This document shows, piece after piece, positions 9,225 to 17,827 of a DNA stretch of 64,000 nucleotides. The DNA comes from Neoroseomonas soli (GTDB taxonomy: Bacteria > Pseudomonadota > Alphaproteobacteria > Acetobacterales > Acetobacteraceae). The number at the start of each line of letters is the position of its first letter. Within the stretch, counting starts at the first letter, position 1. The stretch lies in contig NZ_JAAEDM010000005.1 in NCBI RefSeq assembly GCF_018129065.1, positions 1 through 64,000 of the forward strand, read 5' to 3'. Under the pieces are notes generated by a model. It did no database searches. It had not been told where the DNA came from and saw only the letters and a list, made by a program, of their open reading frames with translations. The position numbers and the translations under genes were made by a program.

Positions 9225-9737
9225 CAGCCGCCCCCCTCATGCCGTTCCGCGTGAAGCCCGAACGTCCCTGGAACAACGCTATGCCGTGGCGCGGATGCCC
9301 GGAAGCGGATTCGGCGTGGGGAGGGAGGATGGCGCGGATGAGTGGGGCATCCGCGAAGCGCGCCGGCAGGCAGGGTCGGCGTGGCGGCCGCCTGCGGGAG
9401 AAAGTGGTGCCCAGGGCCGGACTAAGCCATCTGTCTATAGAAACCCTTATAAATCAATCGACTGAGTGGCACCCCATACCGGCGTCTTGTACCAGTCGAA
9501 TGGCCTTGCGGCAACGGGCGCTATTGCGGTCACCCGAGGCGGACCCGTCTCATCTACACACAGGGGCACGCCTGCTACGGCGCTATGAGCCGCGCGGCAC
9601 GCAAGCGCCGCGATGTTCAGGCCAGAAATTTTTTTTGGCAGCCGTGCAAGCCCTGAGGATCGAGATAGCGGCTGCGCGGCTCCCCCCGGTGGCGGGCCTG
9701 CGGGGGGTGGGGAGTGGCCTGTAGGGCGCCTGCGGGT
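9225..9737. other. Gene-free stretch holding the left element boundary
   Basis: 513 bases between livH and the first cargo gene. The first 180 are host-like and GC-rich. The attachment repeat lies at 9405-9421, and after it the composition changes abruptly to a less GC-rich, AT-run-containing sequence (for example a run of eight T near 9630). I see no gene in either half. Confidence 0.5.
9405..9421 (-). other. attL-type direct repeat (tRNA-Phe 3'-end fragment)
   Basis: Seventeen-base copy of the tRNA-Phe 3' end (with CCA) that is not part of a tRNA here: the sequence diverges at once after position 9421. It marks the far end of the integrated element. Confidence 0.85.
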
Positions 9738-10085
9738 TCACGCCGTGATGCCCTGCTGAAGGAGCACCGAACGGCACATCGCGAGGAGATCGGCCGCGAA
9801 TTCGTCTCGGGCGACGTGATCGCTGGTGATCATCTCCATCAGGCTGGGCACGTTTGCCATCGTCGTACGAGCGATGCCGTCAGCCACCAGGGCGAGCTTA
9901 GAGAGCTTCCAGAAGCTGGCTCTGTGGCCGGTCTTCTCAAGCCAGCGATTGGTGAACTCCGTTCTGATGTCTTCCTGCGGCCAGTCGCCGGTCTTGTGAT
10001 GATAACCAATGATCATCCGAACGAGGTAGCTGACCAGTATGGCCATTTCGTCCAAGTTCATACTGTTTTTTGTAAACAATCCCAT
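9738..10085 (-). CDS. Element cargo protein of unknown function (115 aa)
   Basis: 115 residues, mainly predicted helical, with a hydrophobic segment near residues 14-27 (MAILVSYLVRMIIGYHH) that could be an amphipathic or membrane-associated helix. I do not recognise a family. Codon use is far less GC-biased than in the host genes. It lies 28 bases downstream of the 198-aa gene in the same direction, so the two are probably one transcript and may act together. It could be a defence, immunity or maintenance module, but nothing in the sequence proves this. Confidence 0.7.
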   Translation of the reverse strand: MGLFTKNSMNLDEMAILVSYLVRMIIGYHHKTGDWPQEDIRTEFTNRWLEKTGHRASFWKLSKLALVADGIARTTMANVPSLMEMITSDHVARDEFAADLLAMCRSVLLQQGITA

Positions 10086-10113
10086 TTTAGAATTTCTCGA
10101 TCTCTCGGGGAGT

Positions 10114-10710
10114 TCAATAATAAAAATCGAGCGCCCGCTCGATGTCGGCTAGATGCTTGAACAATGGTCCTGATGAGGCCTCTTCGCGGATGTCCATCAG
10201 CGCAAACAAGTTCTCCAAATCCGCTGTGGCTGTTTCCGGCGGAAGGCCAAGTTCGTCATTTTTTCTGCGTACAGCATCGGCCATTTCGGCGAGGCATGTC
10301 AGGCCTTGCTTCGCGAGTATCCTCCGGGCGCTCTCGTCTTTCGGTGCCAGATGGTCCCGCGCTTCAACGCCCCTGTAAGACGTCGCCAAGTTGCAGATCT
10401 CGGTGACGGCGCGGGCCATGTTTACGTGCCCGATGTCCGAACCTGTTTCTGACAGGACGAGCGCGCGGGCAAACCTGACGGCAAGCACGGATGTCCCGCC
10501 GTCTGCACCCGCATCCGGCATAGCCTCGGCAATTCCCTGATCAAGAATGGTAAGTCGTTGTTCCACCGGGATGCGCTTATTGTTAGCGACGACGCACGCT
10601 CGTCGGAGCGTACTAGCGAATGCGAAGGCGGCGCCCGGCGTCTCGGTGGCCATACGCAGCAGGGTCGCAGTCACGGCCGCGCCTGTGGCTGCATGCTCTA
10701 TCGGACGCAT
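10114..10710 (-). CDS. Element cargo protein of unknown function (198 aa)
   Basis: 198 residues from the ATG at 10710. A GGAAGGA ribosome-binding site lies 12 bases upstream. A TTG at 10731 would add seven residues but has no such site. The protein is helical and soluble-looking, with no signal peptide or transmembrane segment and no motif I recognise. Upstream are two 15-base near-identical direct repeats (10743-10773) that look like an operator. It is first in a two-gene unit with the 115-aa protein. Confidence 0.7.
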   Translation of the reverse strand: MRPIEHAATGAAVTATLLRMATETPGAAFAFASTLRRACVVANNKRIPVEQRLTILDQGIAEAMPDAGADGGTSVLAVRFARALVLSETGSDIGHVNMARAVTEICNLATSYRGVEARDHLAPKDESARRILAKQGLTCLAEMADAVRRKNDELGLPPETATADLENLFALMDIREEASSGPLFKHLADIERALDFYY

Positions 10711-10742
10711 AAAATGTGGACATCCTTCCAATCGTAACAGTT

Positions 10743-10773
10743 ATGACTGAGCCTGATCATGACTGGGCCTGAT
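10743..10773. promoter_or_regulatory. Tandem 15-base repeats, candidate operator of the cargo unit
   Basis: Sequences atgactgagcctgat (10743-10757) and atgactgggcctgat (10759-10773) differ at one base and are spaced 16 bases centre to centre, i.e. about one and a half helical turns. They sit just upstream of the leftward cargo genes, where a repressor or autoregulator would bind. Confidence 0.45.
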
Positions 10774-11003
10774 ACTGCATGTTCTCGCCTTTTGCGGCGC
10801 CTGAACAGATGCGGCGGCCCCCGGGCCTCGATGGCCAATTCCCTCAACCGCGCAGCACAGACATTGCCCTGAGAGACCGGCGTGCCGCCGCCGTGCGGTG
10901 CGAGGTAAGCGGCAGTAGCCGAACCAGCGTTGGCGGCCTGTCCTTTAATGACCGTCTACGGACAGGTGCGGAAAAGGGCGTCTGATGGTGTCCAGAAACT
11001 ATC

Positions 11004-11032
11004 TTGACGACTTTAGGACAGGTGATGATTAT
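11004..11032 (+). promoter_or_regulatory. Candidate sigma70-type promoter of the resolvase gene
   Basis: TTGACG (11004-11009), a 17-base spacer, and GATTAT (11027-11032), located 34 bases before the resolvase ATG. Five and four of six bases match the consensus hexamers. Called by eye only. Confidence 0.4.
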
Positions 11033-11065
11033 GGACGGGGAAATAGGACACCCCGGGGCCACGCC

Positions 11066-11644
11066 ATGCACACCTTCGCCTACCTCCGCGTATCCACCTC
11101 CGAGCAGACGACCGACAACCAGCTTCTTGAACTGCGCACCGCTGGATACGAGCCGGATGCGGTCTATCAGGACACCATCAGCGGGAAGACCAGCGCGGCA
11201 GACCGACCGGACTTCGGGTGCATGCTGGACGCCATCACCCGCACCAAGCGGCCGAAACGCCTGATCGTCACCAAGCTGGACCGCCTGGGCCGCGATGCGG
11301 TGGACATCCAGCAGACCATCAGGCGGCTTGCTGAACTCGGCTGTGCGGTGCGTGTCCTTCAGCTTGGCGACCTCGATCTCACTTCCACGGCGGGGAAGCT
11401 GGTCATGACCACGCTGGCTGCCGTGGCAGAGATGGAGCGGGACATCCTCGTAGAACGCACCAAGGCCGGGCTGGCGAGAGCGAAGCAGGCGGGCACCACC
11501 CTGGGCCGTCCTCGCGTGACCGATGACGCCAAGGCAGCGGCCATCAGGGCCTTGCTCGCGGAGAATGTCAGCGTGTCGGAGATAGCGCGCCAGCATGGCG
11601 TGTCGCGCCAGACCGTGATGCGCCTGCGGGATGCTGCGGCGTAG
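11066..11644 (+). CDS. Serine recombinase (resolvase/invertase family)
   Basis: 192 residues. The N-terminal catalytic motif TFAYLRVSTSEQT places the nucleophile serine at residue 10. The middle holds the family motif KLDRLGRDAVD and TLAAVAEMERDILVERT. The C-terminus is a helix-turn-helix (VSEIARQHGVSRQTVMRL). Length is normal for a small resolvase such as those of plasmids and transposons. The upstream in-frame start at 10985 adds non-family residues and is rejected. A likely role is multimer resolution or inversion within the element. Two 31-base direct repeats follow the gene and might be its sites or a regulator's. Confidence 0.92.
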   Translation: MHTFAYLRVSTSEQTTDNQLLELRTAGYEPDAVYQDTISGKTSAADRPDFGCMLDAITRTKRPKRLIVTKLDRLGRDAVDIQQTIRRLAELGCAVRVLQLGDLDLTSTAGKLVMTTLAAVAEMERDILVERTKAGLARAKQAGTTLGRPRVTDDAKAAAIRALLAENVSVSEIARQHGVSRQTVMRLRDAAA

Positions 11645-11662
11645 ATCGCCATCATAGCCACC

Positions 11663-11752
11663 CACTGTAGGAAGACAGCAGCAGCGCCGTAGCTTGGTGG
11701 GTGGTCGCTGCTTCTACCCCACACTGTAGGAAGACACCGGCATCTCCGTAGC
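11663..11752. repeat. Pair of 31-base direct repeats, 59-base period
   Basis: Copies at 11663-11693 and 11722-11752. Each has a 15-base identical block cactgtaggaagaca, nine variable bases, then ccgtagc. The constant spacing inside both copies suggests a two-part binding site. They lie between the resolvase stop and the ParB-like gene, where they could be recombination sites, a parS-like site or an operator. Confidence 0.6.
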
Positions 11753-11865
11753 CGCTTGGCTGCCCTGAGAGGCCCAGCGTGCGCGTGCGCGCGAGAGGCG
11801 CCCCGTCATCCATCTTCCTTCCAGAGCGACCCCGCTCTCTCATCAACACCCAGGACAACCCGAAC

Positions 11866-12609
11866 ATGACCGATGCCACCACCGCCAGCCCCTCGGGCGC
11901 GGACGAGGCAACGCGCGAACTTTCGATCTCCGACCTTCTGCGCGACCAGCGATACCAGATCAGGGCGAAGACGGACGAAGCCGCAGTCCGTCGATACGCC
12001 AACGCCCTGCGCTCAGGCGCAGAGATGCCGCCTGTCCGTGTGGCCATCGTGGACGGCGTGCCGGTCCTTGTGGACGGACACCACCGCGTTGCCGCGCATG
12101 TGAGTATAGGCCGCAGCACGGTGATGGCTGTCATCGTCACCGCGCCAGCCTCGGAAGCCCGATGGCTCGCAGCACAGGCGAACCTTGAGCACGGATTGCC
12201 GCTAAAGCCGCGAGAGGCCCGCGAGGCATTCCGGGCCTTCATCCGGGCACGCAAGCACGTGCTGAAGGGCCGCAGGCGCCTGATGTCCTTGCGCGACATT
12301 GCGAAGGCCCTGAGTGGCGCCGCCACTCACATGTCCATCCATCGATGGATGAAGAAGGACTTCCCGAAGCTGTCGAAGGAATACGGTGGCGGGCCTGGGC
12401 CAACCTCGAACGAACCTCCTGCCCCGGAGAGCCAGCAGCAGGTGCACTTCACGGACGCGATGAAGGCGGTCGCCCAGGTGCAGATCACCGGCAGGGCCAT
12501 ACGAGACCCGGAGCTTCGGGGGCGCCTGATCGCGGCCATCGAAGACGGATTGAAGATCGTTCGCGAGGTAGGGCCGTGGACGCTGCCTGAGATGTCCCCG
12601 GACTTCTGA
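11866..12609 (+). CDS. ParB/Srx-fold nuclease-domain protein of the element
   Basis: 247 residues from the ATG at 11866. The N-terminal ~110 residues match a ParB N-terminal fold: an ISDLL...YQIRAKTDEAAVRRYANAL region, then PPVRVAIVDG.PVLVDGHHRVAA, where the Gly-His-His-Arg motif is the nucleotide-binding signature of ParB/Srx proteins. The middle resembles a helix-turn-helix (LRDIAKALSGAATHMSIHRWM). The C-terminal quarter is low-complexity then helical. The likely role is partition, transcriptional control or copy maintenance of the element. No ParA partner is present. Confidence 0.8.
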   Translation: MTDATTASPSGADEATRELSISDLLRDQRYQIRAKTDEAAVRRYANALRSGAEMPPVRVAIVDGVPVLVDGHHRVAAHVSIGRSTVMAVIVTAPASEARWLAAQANLEHGLPLKPREAREAFRAFIRARKHVLKGRRRLMSLRDIAKALSGAATHMSIHRWMKKDFPKLSKEYGGGPGPTSNEPPAPESQQQVHFTDAMKAVAQVQITGRAIRDPELRGRLIAAIEDGLKIVREVGPWTLPEMSPDF

Positions 12610-12876
12610 GGAAGCAGGCTGGGACGCCTGGGAGCCTCAGGTATTCCGGGGGTTTGAGTGGCGCCTGTATCATTCCATGCCCTCGGGGCAACAAAACCCG
12701 GTCCCTGGCGGGTGTAACATCGTGACAGGACCGGGCGGAAAGCCAGTTAAGACAAGGCTTTCAGCGAACTGACCTTCGCAGCGCCAGCGCGAAGCCCCGT
12801 GCAGTCCACATTTCGCGCAGGGCTGACCGCGCCATGCGCATCACCACCATCACCGATAACCGAAAGTCCATCAGCA

Positions 12877-13131
12877 ATGTCCACCGTCTACCTCAAGCCG
12901 GGGGAGCGGAAGCTCGCCCTGCGTGTCCGTCTCTCCTCGTCCGACAAGCACCGCCTGAACATCATCGCCTCGCGGTACGAAGGTGTCCTTGGCGCACGTC
13001 CCAGTGCATCCGTCCTCATCGCCCTGGCCGTTGATGCCCTGGCTGATCGTGTTGAGCGGGAACGATACCTTCCGCGACACCCGTCCCTCCGCACTAGGCG
13101 CAGCGCCTCTAACTCGATCTATGGAGGCTGA
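12877..13131 (+). CDS. Small basic element protein, possible ribbon-helix-helix DNA-binding protein
   Basis: 84 residues from the ATG at 12877. A short beta-like segment (RKLALRVRLSSSDKHRL) followed by two helices fits a ribbon-helix-helix or MobC-like accessory protein, but the match is only architectural. The stop codon is one base before the RNase HI start, so the two are translated together. An in-frame start at 12799 is possible but adds residues unlike a protein start. Confidence 0.55.
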   Translation: MSTVYLKPGERKLALRVRLSSSDKHRLNIIASRYEGVLGARPSASVLIALAVDALADRVERERYLPRHPSLRTRRSASNSIYGG

Positions 13132-13132
13132 C

Positions 13133-13618
13133 ATGTCCCAGTCAGCGGACGTTGTCGCGCCTGATGCGCCAGAGATGCCAACCATCGAAGCTTGGACGGA
13201 TGGAGGATGCAGCCCGAACCCCGGCCCAGGCGGATGGGCCTATGTCCTTCGGAACAGTGCCGGGGGCACGAAGGAACGGTCAGGCGCCGTGCCCGACACC
13301 ACCAACAACCAGATGGAACTACTCGCCGCCATCATGGCCCTGGAAGGCTTGTCGGGACCGCGCCGTGTCATCGTTCACAGTGATAGTGAATACGTCTGCC
13401 GTGGCATGACGGGTCGCGTTGCGGACTGGCAGGCGCGAGGATGGTGCACAGCCGCAGGCAAGCCGGTGAAGAACCTGGACCTCTGGCAGCGGCTGCTATC
13501 GGCGGCGGAACGTCATCAGCTGGAATGGCGATGGGTGCGGGCACATGCAGGCGACCCGATGAACGAGCGCGCTGATGCGCTGGTATGTCGAGCGCGGGAG
13601 AAGCACGCCAAGCGATAG
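13133..13618 (+). CDS. rnhA: Ribonuclease HI carried on the element
   Basis: 161 residues from the ATG at 13133, chosen because GGAGG (13123-13127) lies five bases upstream. Catalytic residues are all visible: Asp in AWTDGGCSPNPGPGGWAY, Glu in NNQMELLAAIMAL, Asp in HSDSEYV, and Asp in NERADAL. It cleaves RNA in RNA-DNA hybrids. A mobile element carrying its own RNase HI may use it to process replication primers or R-loops. It follows the small basic gene with a one-base gap. Confidence 0.92.
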   Translation: MSQSADVVAPDAPEMPTIEAWTDGGCSPNPGPGGWAYVLRNSAGGTKERSGAVPDTTNNQMELLAAIMALEGLSGPRRVIVHSDSEYVCRGMTGRVADWQARGWCTAAGKPVKNLDLWQRLLSAAERHQLEWRWVRAHAGDPMNERADALVCRAREKHAKR

Positions 13619-13861
13619 GCAGCGATGGCGTGACAGAACCACCATAGAACCGCCTGGGAGAGTTACTGGGCGGCTTTGCGGCTTCCCTGGGACCGGAGGG
13701 TAGCGGGAACGCACAAGGACGGCCCCAGGGAGCCCTGAAAATCTTCAGCTATCCACCCTCGCGACCAACCCGGCGAGGTTCTGGATTACTGATTTCGGCT
13801 GTGATTTCTTCGCCCCCGTCGCTGTCACACTAGCAGCGCCGTTGGAAGGAACTGACACAGC

Positions 13862-14002
13862 ATGACCATCAAGACGCGTAGTTTTGAACTGGAAGTCTAT
13901 CTGTTCGCCCCGACGATCTACGTCAGGGTCGGGAAGCTGTTCGAGTTCTACCTGTCCAGGCAGTTTCAGACGTTCGATTGGCGGCCTGCGAACGCTTCGT
14001 AA
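13862..14002 (+). CDS. Possible small protein, 46 aa
   Basis: ATG at 13862 with GGAAGGA (13844-13850) upstream and a TAA at 14000-14002. Translation begins MTIKTRSFELEVYLFAPTIY and shows an amphipathic, aromatic-rich pattern with Lys/Arg-rich ends. It lies between RNase HI and the convergent integrase gene. I do not recognise it. It could be a real small element protein, since codon choice is not random, but the evidence is thin. Confidence 0.4.
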   Translation: MTIKTRSFELEVYLFAPTIYVRVGKLFEFYLSRQFQTFDWRPANAS

Positions 14003-14051
14003 TCAGGAAGCCGGGGAGGGGCCGCTACGGTCCCTCCTACGCGATGCGCCG

Positions 14052-15584
14052 CTATGCCAAGCCTATGTCGTAGCGAGGGAACAGGGCCATCGCTCTGGCC
14101 TGCGCTACGGGGCTGAACTCGCCGTAGTCGGCACCAACTGTACCGGGCTCATGCCCAACGATGGCGTCCATCACATCGTGAGGGATGCCGACCTCCCGAG
14201 CCACGGTCTTGAAGCGGTGTCGCCAGCCGTGGTTCGGCTGCACATTCGGGTCGGTCACAACCGTACGCACGAACTCCGTCACTCGGTTCTTCAAGCCACG
14301 CCAGGGGCCGCGAACATCTCCGTCCGCTGCTGGCTTGAGGAACAGATGACCGGCCGGTGCAGCACCAACGAACTCAGGGAAGCCGAGGTCAACGATGTGC
14401 TGGTGAAGCACCACGTCCCTGGCTTCCTTGTTCTTCACCCGACCGGCCTCGGGCGTGATCTTGATGACCCAGTGATCGCCTTCCTGCCGTACATCCTGCT
14501 TGCGAAGCTGGGCCATCTCACCCACGCGCGCACCTGTGTAGGCGCACAACCAGGGAACCCACCGCTTCGCTTGGTAGGTCTGCATCCGCTCACCGGACTG
14601 CTTCAGGTGCCAAGCTGCACGTAGCAGCGACGTGGCCTCATCATCGCTCAGCCCCCGGCTACGCAGCTTCGGCTTTTTGCCGATCTTGATCGTGATGTTC
14701 GCAGCCGGGTTGGAGATCATCCTCCGGTTTGTGACGGCCCAGTTGAAGACGGACTTCAGCCCGGAAAGGTCACTGTCCTTCACGGTCTTCGCGGAGACCG
14801 GCTTTCCCGTCCGAGGGTTCACTTCCTGAAGGCGCTTGTCCTTGTAGGCCAGCACATCGTCGGCGGTGACACGTGCAAGATCGTCATGGCCGATGAAGCG
14901 GACGAACCTGCGAATGGTGGCCCGATAGCTCTCGTATGTGGCGGGAGCGAGGTCCGTCGCCTTCCGTTCGTTCCACCAATCTTCAAGCAGGCCGGTGATG
15001 GAACCTTTGGAGCCGCTTGGCTCCTCGGCCGCCACTGCGGGTTGCGGGGCGGACCACTCGGGAAATCGGTTGGCGTTGGGGTCAGGGCGATAGTCGCCTT
15101 CCGCGAGGCGCTTCAGGTACTCCGCTGCCTGGGTGAGCGCCCGGTCCACCGCTTCGATCAAGCGAGCCCTGCTGCGATCGTCAGCCTTCACGCCTGCTCG
15201 CATCAGGACTTGGTCCACCACAGGACCGACCCACTGTTCCAGCTTACCCGCTGCGGCGGCTTCACGGTGGAGCCTGAGCACGTGCTCCCACATTGTCGGC
15301 GTGTTCGGCTCGTCACCGGCTACGGCAACCAAGTCGGCATAGGCTAGCCCTGCCAGGGCAATGATCTGCTTGTGCGTCAGCGGCTCAGGCTTGGACCGAA
15401 GAACCTTCCAGTGGTTCGCTACCTCGGCCGCGACCTTCGCGTATGCGCTGCGCGCCTCGGTGGGGTGCTTGGTCTTCAGCGAGACCTTCACCTCACGCTT
15501 CCCGATGGCCTCTCGGAGATCGTCGGGAACGGCCTTGCGGAAATAATAGACACCCGTGACGGGGTGCTTGAACGGACGGCTCAT
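14052..15584 (-). CDS. int: Tyrosine site-specific integrase
   Basis: 510 residues from the ATG at 15584 (start MSRPFKHPVTGVYYFRKAVP, a phage-integrase N-terminal motif). An upstream TTG at 15617 is less likely. The SAM-like core-binding domain is followed by the catalytic domain with Arg in YTGARVGEMAQL, Lys in RVKNKEARD, His-x-x-Arg in HGWRHRFKT, His in IVGHEPG and the Tyr in ADYGEF. It begins ~100 bases from the tRNA-Phe copy, as is usual for tRNA-targeting integrases, and catalyses integration of the element at the tRNA 3' end. Confidence 0.95.
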   Translation of the reverse strand: MSRPFKHPVTGVYYFRKAVPDDLREAIGKREVKVSLKTKHPTEARSAYAKVAAEVANHWKVLRSKPEPLTHKQIIALAGLAYADLVAVAGDEPNTPTMWEHVLRLHREAAAAGKLEQWVGPVVDQVLMRAGVKADDRSRARLIEAVDRALTQAAEYLKRLAEGDYRPDPNANRFPEWSAPQPAVAAEEPSGSKGSITGLLEDWWNERKATDLAPATYESYRATIRRFVRFIGHDDLARVTADDVLAYKDKRLQEVNPRTGKPVSAKTVKDSDLSGLKSVFNWAVTNRRMISNPAANITIKIGKKPKLRSRGLSDDEATSLLRAAWHLKQSGERMQTYQAKRWVPWLCAYTGARVGEMAQLRKQDVRQEGDHWVIKITPEAGRVKNKEARDVVLHQHIVDLGFPEFVGAAPAGHLFLKPAADGDVRGPWRGLKNRVTEFVRTVVTDPNVQPNHGWRHRFKTVAREVGIPHDVMDAIVGHEPGTVGADYGEFSPVAQARAMALFPRYDIGLA

Positions 15585-15680
15585 CGCAAGGACCACTGTA
15601 CCCCCCGTTTGTACCAACGAGGAGCGCCGATCAGTCTGATTTCCGAGGATTTCCGCCCGATCAGGGGCTTAGGAGAAAGA

Positions 15681-15697
15681 TGGTGCCCAGGGCCGGA
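15681..15697 (-). other. attR-type repeat inside tRNA-Phe
   Basis: Same 17 bases as at 9405-9421. This copy belongs to the functional tRNA and lies next to the integrase gene, so integration restored the tRNA. Confidence 0.85.
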
Positions 15698-15756
15698 ATC
15701 GAACCAGCGACACTGCGATTTTCAGTCGCATGCTCTACCAACTGAGCTACCTGGGC
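15681..15756 (-). tRNA. tRNA-Phe (GAA)
   Basis: A 76-base cloverleaf on the minus strand. The 5' end is GCCCAGGTAGCTCAG, the anticodon loop reads CTGAAAA, giving anticodon GAA, the T-arm is GGTTCGATTCC, and the 3' end GGGCACCA encodes its own CCA. Acceptor-stem complementarity is complete. Its 3' 17 bases are the attachment site of the element, and the gene is intact after integration. Confidence 0.95.
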
Positions 15757-15829
15757 CCAGCGAGGTTCCTGATGGAACCCGGCGAGGCCGCGGGAAATAG
15801 CGGAGGCCGCGCCGCCTGTCCAGCGGGGG

Positions 15830-16021
15830 TCAGGCGGTTTCGTCGTCGCGGTTCATCGCGTCCTCGGGTTCGCCAGGAATCGCATAGGTTCCGCCGAGCC
15901 AGCGGCCGAGATCGACCTGTGCGCAGCGCGGGGAACAGAAGGGGCGGGCCTCCGCGCTCGCCGCCCGGCCGCAGACGGGGCAGCGGGATGCGGGGCGGGG
16001 GCGGCGGGGATCATGCGCCAT
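15830..16021 (-). CDS. yacG: YacG-type zinc-finger DNA gyrase inhibitor
   Basis: 63 residues. Four Cys arranged as CPVCGR and CSPRC, the YacG zinc-binding pattern, followed by DLGRWLGGTYAIPG, which is the family signature. In E. coli YacG binds GyrB and blocks DNA binding. Start codon lies 11 bases inside the end of the upstream RNase E/G gene, a common arrangement in alphaproteobacteria. Confidence 0.92.
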   Translation of the reverse strand: MAHDPRRPRPASRCPVCGRAASAEARPFCSPRCAQVDLGRWLGGTYAIPGEPEDAMNRDDETA

Positions 16022-17255
16022 CTCTGGCCTCCTCGATCTGCGGCGTGACGGCGAGCGGGTCCGGGGTCAGCGCCAGGGCGTGCCCGGCGGCGGCCGCGAA
16101 TTCCTCCAGCGCGCCGGGCAGGGCCTGCAGCGCAGACAGCACGGGGGGCGCGGCGCGCAGTGCGAATCGCTGTCCTGGCCGCGCCGCGGCTTCCCGCGCT
16201 GCCTGCCGCAGAGCCGCAAGGCCGCGCGTGAGCGGGGAGGGCGGCCAGCCCAGCACCTCATGCAGGGGCGGGTGGATGCGGTCGCGCACGATCTCGGCGA
16301 GGCCGAGCCCGGTGAAGCCCACCAGCCGCGCCAGGCGGTCCGGCGCCAGGGCGGCGCGCAGCGGTTCGGCCAGCGCGGCGCGGCGCTTGGGCGACATGCC
16401 GGCGAAATCCACCAGGATGGCCCCGGCGAGGTTCCGCAGGCGGATCTGGCGGGCGAGTTCCGGCAGCGCATCCCGGTTCAGCGCCGCCACGGCATTGGTG
16501 CCGCGCGCTCCGGCGGCACTGCCGGCATCCATGTCGATCGCGGTGAGCGCCGGAGTCGGGTGGATCAGCAGCCGCCCACCGCCGGGCAGCGGCACCTCCG
16601 GCCCGGCGAGGAGATCGAACTCCTCCTCGAGCGAATCGTCGAAGGCGGGCGTGGTCAGCAGCCGGACCCGTGCGCCGAGCACCCCGCGCAGGCGGGCGGC
16701 GAGGGCTGCCGAATCGACCTCGATGGCGGCGGAGGGGTGGCGGGCCGCGAGTCGCAGCGGCGCATCCGGTCCGCGGGCGACGAGGCGCGGCGCGCCCTCG
16801 GGCGCTGCGGCGATTCGCGCCGCGTCGGCATCCGTCAGCCGGGCCGAGACGCGCGGCCCCTTGCCGCCCTGGGCGGCGCGGGTGATCCGCAGCGGCAGGA
16901 TCATGCCCTCGGAGACCGCCTCGGCGATGGGGCGACGGGTGGTGCTGGCTTCGCTTTCGGGCAGGAAACCGGTCTCGCCACCGGGCAGCGCCACGAAGGC
17001 GCCGGCCATGGGCGCTGCCACCGCCGAGACGCGGCCACGATGCAGGTCGCCGACGCCGTCCGGGCGCGCGGGGCGCTCGACCCAGGCCTCGGTCAGCACG
17101 CCGTCCAGCAGCAGCGCCGTGCGCACTTCCCCGGGGGAGGCGCCGACACGGATCGTCGCGCCGCGAGGCGCGCGGGGCTCGGTCGCCACGCCGCGAGGCG
17201 CGCGGGGCTCGGTCGCCACGCCGCGAGGCGCGCGGGGTTCTACGGCCGCAGCCAT
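16011..17255 (-). CDS. RNase E/G-family endoribonuclease with N-terminal decapeptide repeats
   Basis: 414 residues. The core has the S1-like insert (GDLHRGRVSAV...GAFVALPGGETGFLPESE), the catalytic Asp motif LTAIDMDAGSA, and the second metal-binding Asp in AGAILVDFAGM, both equivalent to the RNase E catalytic aspartates. Residues 1-35 contain three copies of EPRAPRGVAT-like decapeptides. The usual C-terminal Zn-link (CPxC) motif is missing: the sequence ends soon after GLGLAEIVRDR. It overlaps maf by 16 bases and yacG by 11. Probably processes rRNA/mRNA. How it oligomerises without Zn-link cysteines is unclear; adjacent yacG encodes a zinc finger. Confidence 0.85.
   Translation of the reverse strand: MAAAVEPRAPRGVATEPRAPRGVATEPRAPRGATIRVGASPGEVRTALLLDGVLTEAWVERPARPDGVGDLHRGRVSAVAAPMAGAFVALPGGETGFLPESEASTTRRPIAEAVSEGMILPLRITRAAQGGKGPRVSARLTDADAARIAAAPEGAPRLVARGPDAPLRLAARHPSAAIEVDSAALAARLRGVLGARVRLLTTPAFDDSLEEEFDLLAGPEVPLPGGGRLLIHPTPALTAIDMDAGSAAGARGTNAVAALNRDALPELARQIRLRNLAGAILVDFAGMSPKRRAALAEPLRAALAPDRLARLVGFTGLGLAEIVRDRIHPPLHEVLGWPPSPLTRGLAALRQAAREAAARPGQRFALRAAPPVLSALQALPGALEEFAAAAGHALALTPDPLAVTPQIEEARDGA
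17161..17238 (-). repeat. 30-base tandem repeat inside the RNase E/G gene start
   Basis: About 2.6 copies of a 30-base unit beginning ccgcgaggcgcgcggggctc (17161, 17191, 17221), perfectly conserved between the first two. It encodes the decapeptide repeat of the protein's N-terminus, so copy-number change keeps the reading frame. Confidence 0.9.
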
Positions 17256-17827
17256 CCGATGCCGCGCAGCAGTTGCGCCGTCTCGAAAAGCGGCAGGCCG
17301 ACCACGTTGGAATGGCTGCCCGAGAGGAAGCGCACGAAGGCCTCGGCATGGCCCTGGATGGCGTAGCCGCCGGCCTTACCGCGCCATTCCCCGATGGCGA
17401 GGTAGTCCGCTACCTGCTGCCCGGTCAGGCGCTGGAAGGTCACTGCGGTCTCGACCAGGCGCTTCAGCCGCCGCCCGTCGGGCAGGGCGAGCACCACGCC
17501 CGTCATCACCCGGTGCCTGCGGCCGGAGATCAGGTCGAGGCAGGCGCGCGCCTGCTCCTCGGTCTCCGCCTTGGGCAGGATCCGGCGGCCGACCGCCACC
17601 ACCGTATCGGCGGCGAGCACCAGCGCCTCCGGCTCGACCGCAGCGGCGGCCTCGGCCTTGGCCAGCGCGAGGCGCGCGGCGTGCGGCCGCGGCAATTCGC
17701 CGCCATAGGGCGTCTCGTCGATGTCGGTGGGGACCACCCGGTCGGGCGCGATGCCGATGCGGGCCAGGAGGTCCAGGCGCCGCGGGCTGGCGCTGGCCAG
17801 CACCAGGGGCGGGCGCGGTCCGGTCAT
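17240..17827 (-). CDS. maf: Maf-family nucleoside triphosphate pyrophosphatase
   Basis: 195 residues of normal length. Substrate-binding motif LASASPRRLDLL is near the N-terminus, followed by DETPYGGELP and the acidic LAADTVVAVGRRIL that binds the metal. It hydrolyses non-canonical or dTTP/UTP-type nucleotides to monophosphates. Downstream of infA and upstream of the RNase E/G gene, an order conserved in the class. Confidence 0.92.
   Translation of the reverse strand: MTGPRPPLVLASASPRRLDLLARIGIAPDRVVPTDIDETPYGGELPRPHAARLALAKAEAAAAVEPEALVLAADTVVAVGRRILPKAETEEQARACLDLISGRRHRVMTGVVLALPDGRRLKRLVETAVTFQRLTGQQVADYLAIGEWRGKAGGYAIQGHAEAFVRFLSGSHSNVVGLPLFETAQLLRGIGWLRP

Follow-up and report, generated by a model that had tools for sequence, protein, structure and literature searches.

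The window analysed here, a stretch of 64,000 nt, lies on contig C5 (NZ_JAAEDM010000005.1) of the 5.24-Mb genome of Neoroseomonas soli, and contains a compact element integrated at a tRNA-Phe gene. The 17-bp 3' end of that gene, TGGTGCCCAGGGCCGGA, occurs as exact copies at 9405-9421 and 15681-15697, and these attachment (att) copies are ~6.3 kb apart. They are the only two sites of this sequence in the window, even when up to two mismatches are allowed, against a chance expectation of 0.09; this expectation, together with the empty sites in relatives described below, ruled out a fortuitous match. The integrase gene starts 64 bp from the end of tRNA-Phe and points at it, and the G+C content is 62.3% within the element as against 71.4% in the flanks. 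The features of the locus, with their positions in the window, are as follows.

9405-9421, + strand: left att repeat, a 17-bp copy of the tRNA-Phe 3' end, identical to 15681-15697; the junction in the empty site of G006
9738-10085, - strand: orf115, apparent private cargo without known family (PHROG match at 0.011 only); of 150 genomes, seen in none but its own
10114-10710, - strand: orf198, apparent private cargo without credible family match; found only in its own genome among 200
11066-11644, + strand: small serine recombinase of the resolvase/invertase type with a C-terminal helix-turn-helix (HTH), 192 aa (Pfam, PHROG)
11658-11752, no strand: pair of 36-nt direct repeats between resolvase and parB, 83% identical, 59 bp from start to start
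11866-12609, + strand: ParB-like protein, 247 aa (PHROG ParB; ParB/Srx N domain plus HTH; AlphaFold (AF2) model)
12877-13131, + strand: orf84, 84 aa, an open frame without family match
13133-13618, + strand: RNase HI, 161 aa, catalytic residues kept (NCBIfam above cut-off; alignment to solved RNase HI)
13619-13861, no strand: structured non-coding stretch of 243 nt, 3' of RNase HI (folding versus shuffles)
13862-14002, + strand: orf46, 46 aa, convergent with int (55% identical relative in G713)
14052-15617, - strand: tyrosine integrase with DUF6538 N-terminus, 521 aa (Pfam, PHROG)
15681-15697, + strand: right att repeat, the tRNA-Phe 3' end (repeat search, tRNA call)
15681-15756, - strand: tRNA-Phe (GAA), the integration target (ARAGORN and Rfam)

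An earlier note on this DNA had described the 17-bp tRNA-end duplication, a suitably placed integrase, a resolvase, a ParB-like protein and RNase HI within 6.3 kb, all of which are borne out. Its count of two unknown cargo genes holds for orf115 and orf198, but it missed a third uncharacterised gene (84 aa) and the conserved 46-aa open reading frame (ORF).

Occupancy of the tRNA-Phe site in relatives

A precise empty site is found in G006, a member of the genus: its tRNA flank matches window positions 9373-9421 and continues without interruption at 15672-17401. The tRNA is 6456 bp from livH here, as against 695 bp in G006 and 125 bp in G002. Since livH lies directly beside the same tRNA-Phe in both relatives, the island is, on these alignments, a real insertion. 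Three further genomes (G013, G012 and G014) hold 2.4, 9.7 and 10.9 kb of other DNA between livH and tRNA-Phe, and in the G014 insert an integrase-like ORF extends into the tRNA region. A ~45% identical integrase is found at the same tRNA-Phe/yacG/rng site in G038. By these comparisons, the livH/tRNA-Phe site is variable in the genus.

Three hallmarks of a tRNA-end island are therefore present: a repeat at both ends, an adjoining integrase and an empty site in relatives. The earlier note's proposal that a mobile element has integrated by way of the tRNA-Phe 3' end stands, given the att repeats and the variable occupancy; presence in all relatives, which it had regarded as telling against mobility, is not what is seen, two relatives being empty and three carrying other inserts.

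The left flank contains livM/livH (recognised by eye) and the right flank yacG, an RNase G-like gene (called rng) and a Maf-like gene. At its 5' end, this RNase G-like gene has a perfect 30-bp tandem repeat in 2.6 copies (17159-17237), which suggests a misplaced start or a variable leader.

Gene products of the element

The integrase comprises DUF6538, SAM-like and Phage_integrase domains (Pfam). The resolvase has the Resolvase domain (Pfam, 2e-35; PHROG DNA invertase, 7e-52) and the C-terminal HTH that define the serine resolvase/invertase family. The core of the neighbouring 36-nt repeats is found only at this place in the window, and the repeats are candidates for a res or ParB site. Beside another DUF6538 integrase, in G713 (L204:4054-4179), the relative of orf46 occupies the same position, making orf46 a candidate small partner of this integrase type, for instance an excision factor.

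The remaining ORFs are less conspicuous. By eye alone orf84 is ribbon-helix-helix-like, and it has no PHROG, NCBIfam or PADLOC match. No Pfam, NCBIfam or PADLOC match was found for orf115, nor any relatives in viral contigs or in 150 family genomes beyond its own, and orf198 has no relatives in viral contigs, plasmids or 200 family genomes beyond its own. The single-sequence model of orf198 is all-helical and of low confidence (predicted local distance difference test score, pLDDT, 53), too poor for a structure search. From their distribution, only orf115 and orf198 look like private cargo, and we assign neither a candidate function. As regards defence cargo, PADLOC matched none of the element's proteins apart from weak HTH matches of the resolvase.

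Profile scans of the element's proteins (Pfam, NCBIfam, PHROGs and PADLOC) found no relaxase, Rep, primase, terminase, capsid or AlpA, and no packaging or capsid-remodelling gene. An integrative mobilisable element is recognised by a relaxase or mobilisation protein, which Pfam, NCBIfam and PHROGs did not detect; a phage satellite of the type of phage-inducible chromosomal islands (PICIs), P4 or phage-inducible chromosomal minimalist islands (PICMIs) is recognised by an AlpA-like regulator together with a primase or replication gene, and these were not found either. Because relaxase, AlpA, primase, terminase, capsid and Rep are all missing, we do not file the element under either class, and its earlier description as a 'satellite or mobilisable island', for which packaging and capsid-remodelling genes are lacking as well, is unproven. 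One alternative is an integrative mobilisable element that has an origin of transfer (oriT) alone and is moved by a conjugative helper. Such oriT-only integrative elements are known (PMC11389934), and the structured 243-nt stretch is a candidate place for an oriT; with no relaxase or mobilisation protein to be found, we consider this explanation decidedly unlikely.

A recurring family of tRNA-end islands

Relatives were collected by ParB-like protein searches plus an RNase HI search, and 28 ParB-like loci were examined. A serine recombinase lies within ~5 kb of the ParB-like gene in 22 of them, mostly within 2.5 kb, and several of the six loci without a nearby recombinase are near contig ends or are distant relatives. 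Since six recombinases that were compared are mostly only 28-37% identical to one another (two are 69% identical), the pairing is kept while the recombinase is exchanged. Integrases also differ between sister elements. Clean att repeats bound at least eleven of the loci, which are islands of 5-8 kb at a tRNA end (or gene end), and the G+C content is below that of the flanks in all 11 sister elements with flanks available, as in the window element. Similar elements elsewhere, the lack of which the earlier note would have counted against its proposal, thus exist, including one at tRNA-Phe with the identical att sequence. The sister elements are as follows.

G398 (another family of the same class), tRNA-Phe, 5.1 kb: identical 17-bp att at both ends; 45% identical integrase; ParB-like protein and resolvase
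Neoroseomonas marina, tRNA-Thr, 5.9 kb: att repeats
N. terrae, tRNA-Thr, 8.0 kb: att repeats
G795, tRNA-Thr, 6.6 kb: att repeats
G716, tRNA-Thr, 8.0 kb: att repeats
G026, tRNA-Thr, 5.5 kb: att repeats
G795, tRNA-Gln, 6.4 kb: att repeats
N. marina, tRNA-Gln, 8.1 kb: att repeats; integrase, resolvase and RNase HI, no recognised ParB; from the RNase HI search
Rhodopseudomonas palustris JSC-3b, tRNA-Leu, 6.8 kb: att repeats
Pseudoprimorskyibacter insulae, tRNA-Arg, 7.2 kb: att repeats
G136, 3' end of a protein gene, 5.3 kb: att repeats

Two fragments were also seen. At tRNA-Glu of N. marina (L264:8754-11565) there is a 2.8-kb remnant with 18-bp att repeats, a truncated DUF6538 integrase and a few genes, and in G026 (L269:4439-4837) a C-terminal fragment of an element-type RNase HI adjoins tRNA-Gly, the trace of a lost element. 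In two other alphaproteobacteria (L205 and L206), ParB-like genes lie in DNA before a gene recognised by eye as a Mg-chelatase/ComM-type ATPase, possibly another integration site.

Such fragments, and the transfer genes that were not found, are what would be expected if the window element had decayed from a larger prophage or integrative and conjugative element and were now immobile. Against this, both of its att copies are exact, its integrase, resolvase and RNase HI are full length, and the same compact layout turns up at different sites and in hosts that are not related, a pattern that decay would not generate. We regard this explanation as most improbable.

Sister-element cargo and the comparison with phage satellites

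For an overview of cargo, the three uncharacterised ORFs of the window were pooled with 39 accessory proteins encoded by the sister elements and by the plasmid p1318-9 (see below). Pfam returned BRO antirepressors (2), a C5 methylase, Vsr, a RelA/SpoT-like protein, DUF4435, a gp14-like protein, a Crp-type HTH and a weak histidinol-dehydrogenase match; PHROGs returned mostly antirepressor and methyltransferase families. The C5 DNA methylase with Vsr, the RelA/SpoT-domain gene and the DUF4435 gene (L201:7877-9668 in G716; L199:7213-8475 in G795; L118:7702-8568) look like defence or stress genes. In N. terrae (L107:9162-9974), a gene like that for T7 gp14, an internal virion protein, stands directly upstream of the ParB-like gene. 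Judged by the start of its sequence, the same gene occurs in Roseomonas rosulenta (L108:460-1272), the Pfam match coming from N. terrae only. An 8.3-kb tRNA-Thr element of G171 (L070:6507-14796) is closer to a satellite than is the window element; besides a resolvase and a related integrase, it encodes a large protein that by eye resembles a phage-type helicase.

These genes bear on the idea that the element is a minimalist phage satellite, which would excise on helper infection, replicate with help and be packaged in helper particles. The BRO antirepressors of two sisters, the gp14-like protein and the defence-like methylase with Vsr fit this idea, as do the 5-8 kb size and tRNA-end integrase, given a satellite size range of 6-18 kb (PMC11389934). 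In one case, a close ParB/resolvase pair was found on a contig that is classified as viral (L120). A small element that likewise has ParB, a resolvase and an integrase is the putative satellite phage-plasmid ML_43_3791, but it measures 15.8 kb, its integrase is of P4 type and it has primase-polymerase, terminase and tail genes (PMC4490671). The PICMIs resemble the window element as minimal tyrosine-integrase islands of similar size with variable defence cargo; they differ in integrating beside fis, in requiring AlpA and primase besides the integrase, both missing here, and in a reported core without ParB or resolvase (PMC10803314). The window element lacks terminase and capsid-remodelling genes too, a search of 50,697 phage records with its ParB-like protein gave just two matches, both short and weak (20% of the query), and the ParB-like/resolvase pair is present on plasmids. 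On balance, a satellite is unlikely.

The ParB-like protein and its plasmid cousins

The ParB-like protein matches the PHROG ParB family at 8e-13 and ParB_N in Pfam at just 0.086. An AF2 model built with 15 homologues reached a pLDDT of 86, and its best solved-structure matches were Noc, ParB, pNOB8 ParB, KorB and sulfiredoxin. As modelled, the protein consists of a ParB/Srx domain and, C-terminal to it, an HTH region, with a ParB/Noc/KorB-like fold, and it is plausible from this model that it functions like ParB.

The ParB-like/resolvase pair also occurs on two small replicons. One is p1318-9, a 3,454-bp plasmid of Roseomonas marmotae (NZ_CP061100.1), where it is accompanied by a small HTH protein. 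The other, from Pelagimonas varians (NZ_QKMF01000045.1), is a contig of 4,518 bp with a gene for a Rep_3 initiator; because the same 95 bp stand at both of its ends without mismatch, as in a linearly assembled circle, we take it to be circular (4.4 kb). Like the window element, both place a ParB-like gene and a small serine recombinase within ~1-2.5 kb of each other, on 3.5-4.4 kb in total, whereas neither has an integrase or att sites, and the Rep_3 of the P. varians plasmid and the small HTH protein of p1318-9 are missing from the window element. On gene content, the ParB-like/resolvase pair is a recurrent core common to islands and small plasmids. No description of this element class was found in the open-access literature, which is weak evidence of novelty, and the recurring family of tiny Alphaproteobacterial islands, which combine an integrase with maintenance genes of small-plasmid type and in some cases an additional RNase HI while lacking recognisable replication or transfer genes, is apparently undescribed.

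An additional RNase HI

The RNase HI of the element is clearly recognisable (Pfam RNase H, 1e-38; NCBIfam ribonuclease HI, 3e-53, above cut-off), with the catalytic D/E/D/D positions kept. Recent duplication of the host gene was ruled out: the two are 57% identical, and in a tree the element copy is sister to the extra copy in the N. marina tRNA-Gln element (support 86/85), not to the host gene. The copies of Ruegeria and P. insulae pair as well (99/94). The branches are long, and the element copies taken together may have one origin or several.

RNase HI lies within 1.1 kb of the ParB gene in 5 of the 28 loci (the window, R. palustris, G136, P. insulae and Ruegeria sp. PrR005), in differing gene orders. 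An RNase HI gene was present in all 39 genomes that were searched, the element copies coming in addition, so that these neighbourhoods are very unlikely to have arisen by chance. Judged by this distribution, RNase HI is a recurrent component and not one-off cargo. The gene set that the earlier note took for unusual is accordingly no singular oddity: the ParB-like/resolvase pair recurs and is shared with small plasmids, and RNase HI recurs too. In six elements without RNase HI (L063, L107, L200, L202, L199 and L108), ParB is preceded by a small protein that by eye resembles a degenerate HNH. No element was seen with both, which is suggestive of mutual exclusion but not significant at these numbers (hand-calculated chance of no overlap ~0.17).

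The stretch following RNase HI (13619-13861) is more structured than shuffled sequences on both strands (z -3.5 on +, z -2.7 on -). A structured-RNA family in the element is not supported, as Rfam gave no match at E<=1 save the tRNA region, a search that would miss a diverged RNA I/RNA II-like origin. Conservation of the stretch in sister elements was not found, nor was any conserved non-coding DNA of note common to them and the window.

The combination of this stretch with a lack of Rep makes a further idea attractive, in which the excised circle would replicate Rep-free in the manner of ColE1, its own RNase HI trimming an R-loop transcript, possibly from 13619-13861, into a primer. Since there is no Rfam match, the stretch is unconserved and many large phages also carry RNase HI, we treat this as a long shot. 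If true, RNase HI would be the replication gene of the element class, which would explain its recurrence beside ParB where no Rep is found.

Discussion

The results presented above suggest that the element is a compact integrative island of plasmid origin, with an integrase taking the place of rep, a reading to which we assign a probability of roughly 0.68. Its site, boundaries, gene content, variability, recurrence and plasmid cousins are all visible directly in the DNA. The reading is preferred mainly because the ParB-like/resolvase pair occurs on plasmids without integrase, and the window element has no Rep. In such an island, the DUF6538 integrase would join the attP site of the excised circle to the 3' end of tRNA-Phe, restoring the tRNA, in a reversible reaction. 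In the free circle, the resolvase would resolve multimers, and the ParB-like protein would bind element DNA, acting either as a regulator or in segregation, for which a ParA of the host or of a plasmid might serve as partner. Integration, in place of a Rep protein, would be the chief means of persistence, and RNase HI, a recurrent accessory, would have the element's RNA-DNA hybrids as its substrate, possibly during the priming of replication. Movement from cell to cell would probably depend on helpers, through other elements (phage particles or conjugative plasmids), or else on DNA uptake.

Several observations weigh against this reading. Canonical ParB proteins carry the CTP-binding motifs GERR and ENxQR; in alignments, the ParB-like protein has G-H-H-R in place of the former and N-L-x-H-G in place of the latter, and no ParA partner was detected in the element by Pfam, NCBIfam or PHROGs. 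For these reasons, real partition by this protein is uncertain on its sequence, and despite the ParB fold the element cannot be assigned to a ParABS system. Similar folds are common among phage proteins, so a regulatory role is also possible. No excisionase was identified in the element. Finally, these phage folds, together with the BRO antirepressors in two sister elements and the gp14-like protein in N. terrae, leave a phage origin open. Stabilisation of an integrative element via a partition system has a precedent in SGI1, which differs in having parS sites, borrowing the ParA/ParB of a helper and being mobilised by IncC plasmids, whereas the window element encodes a ParB-like protein itself and lacks ParA (PMC10954446).

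According to recent reviews, many genomic islands lack known means of moving. With the elements described here, one class of such islands gains a definable core, consisting of a tRNA-end integrase, a ParB-like protein, a serine resolvase and often RNase HI. This also raises the question of what use a 6-kb island has for an RNase HI gene, since all of the host genomes examined already possess one. The two free-plasmid cousins, together with intact examples in named strains, make replication, stability and transfer of these elements directly testable.

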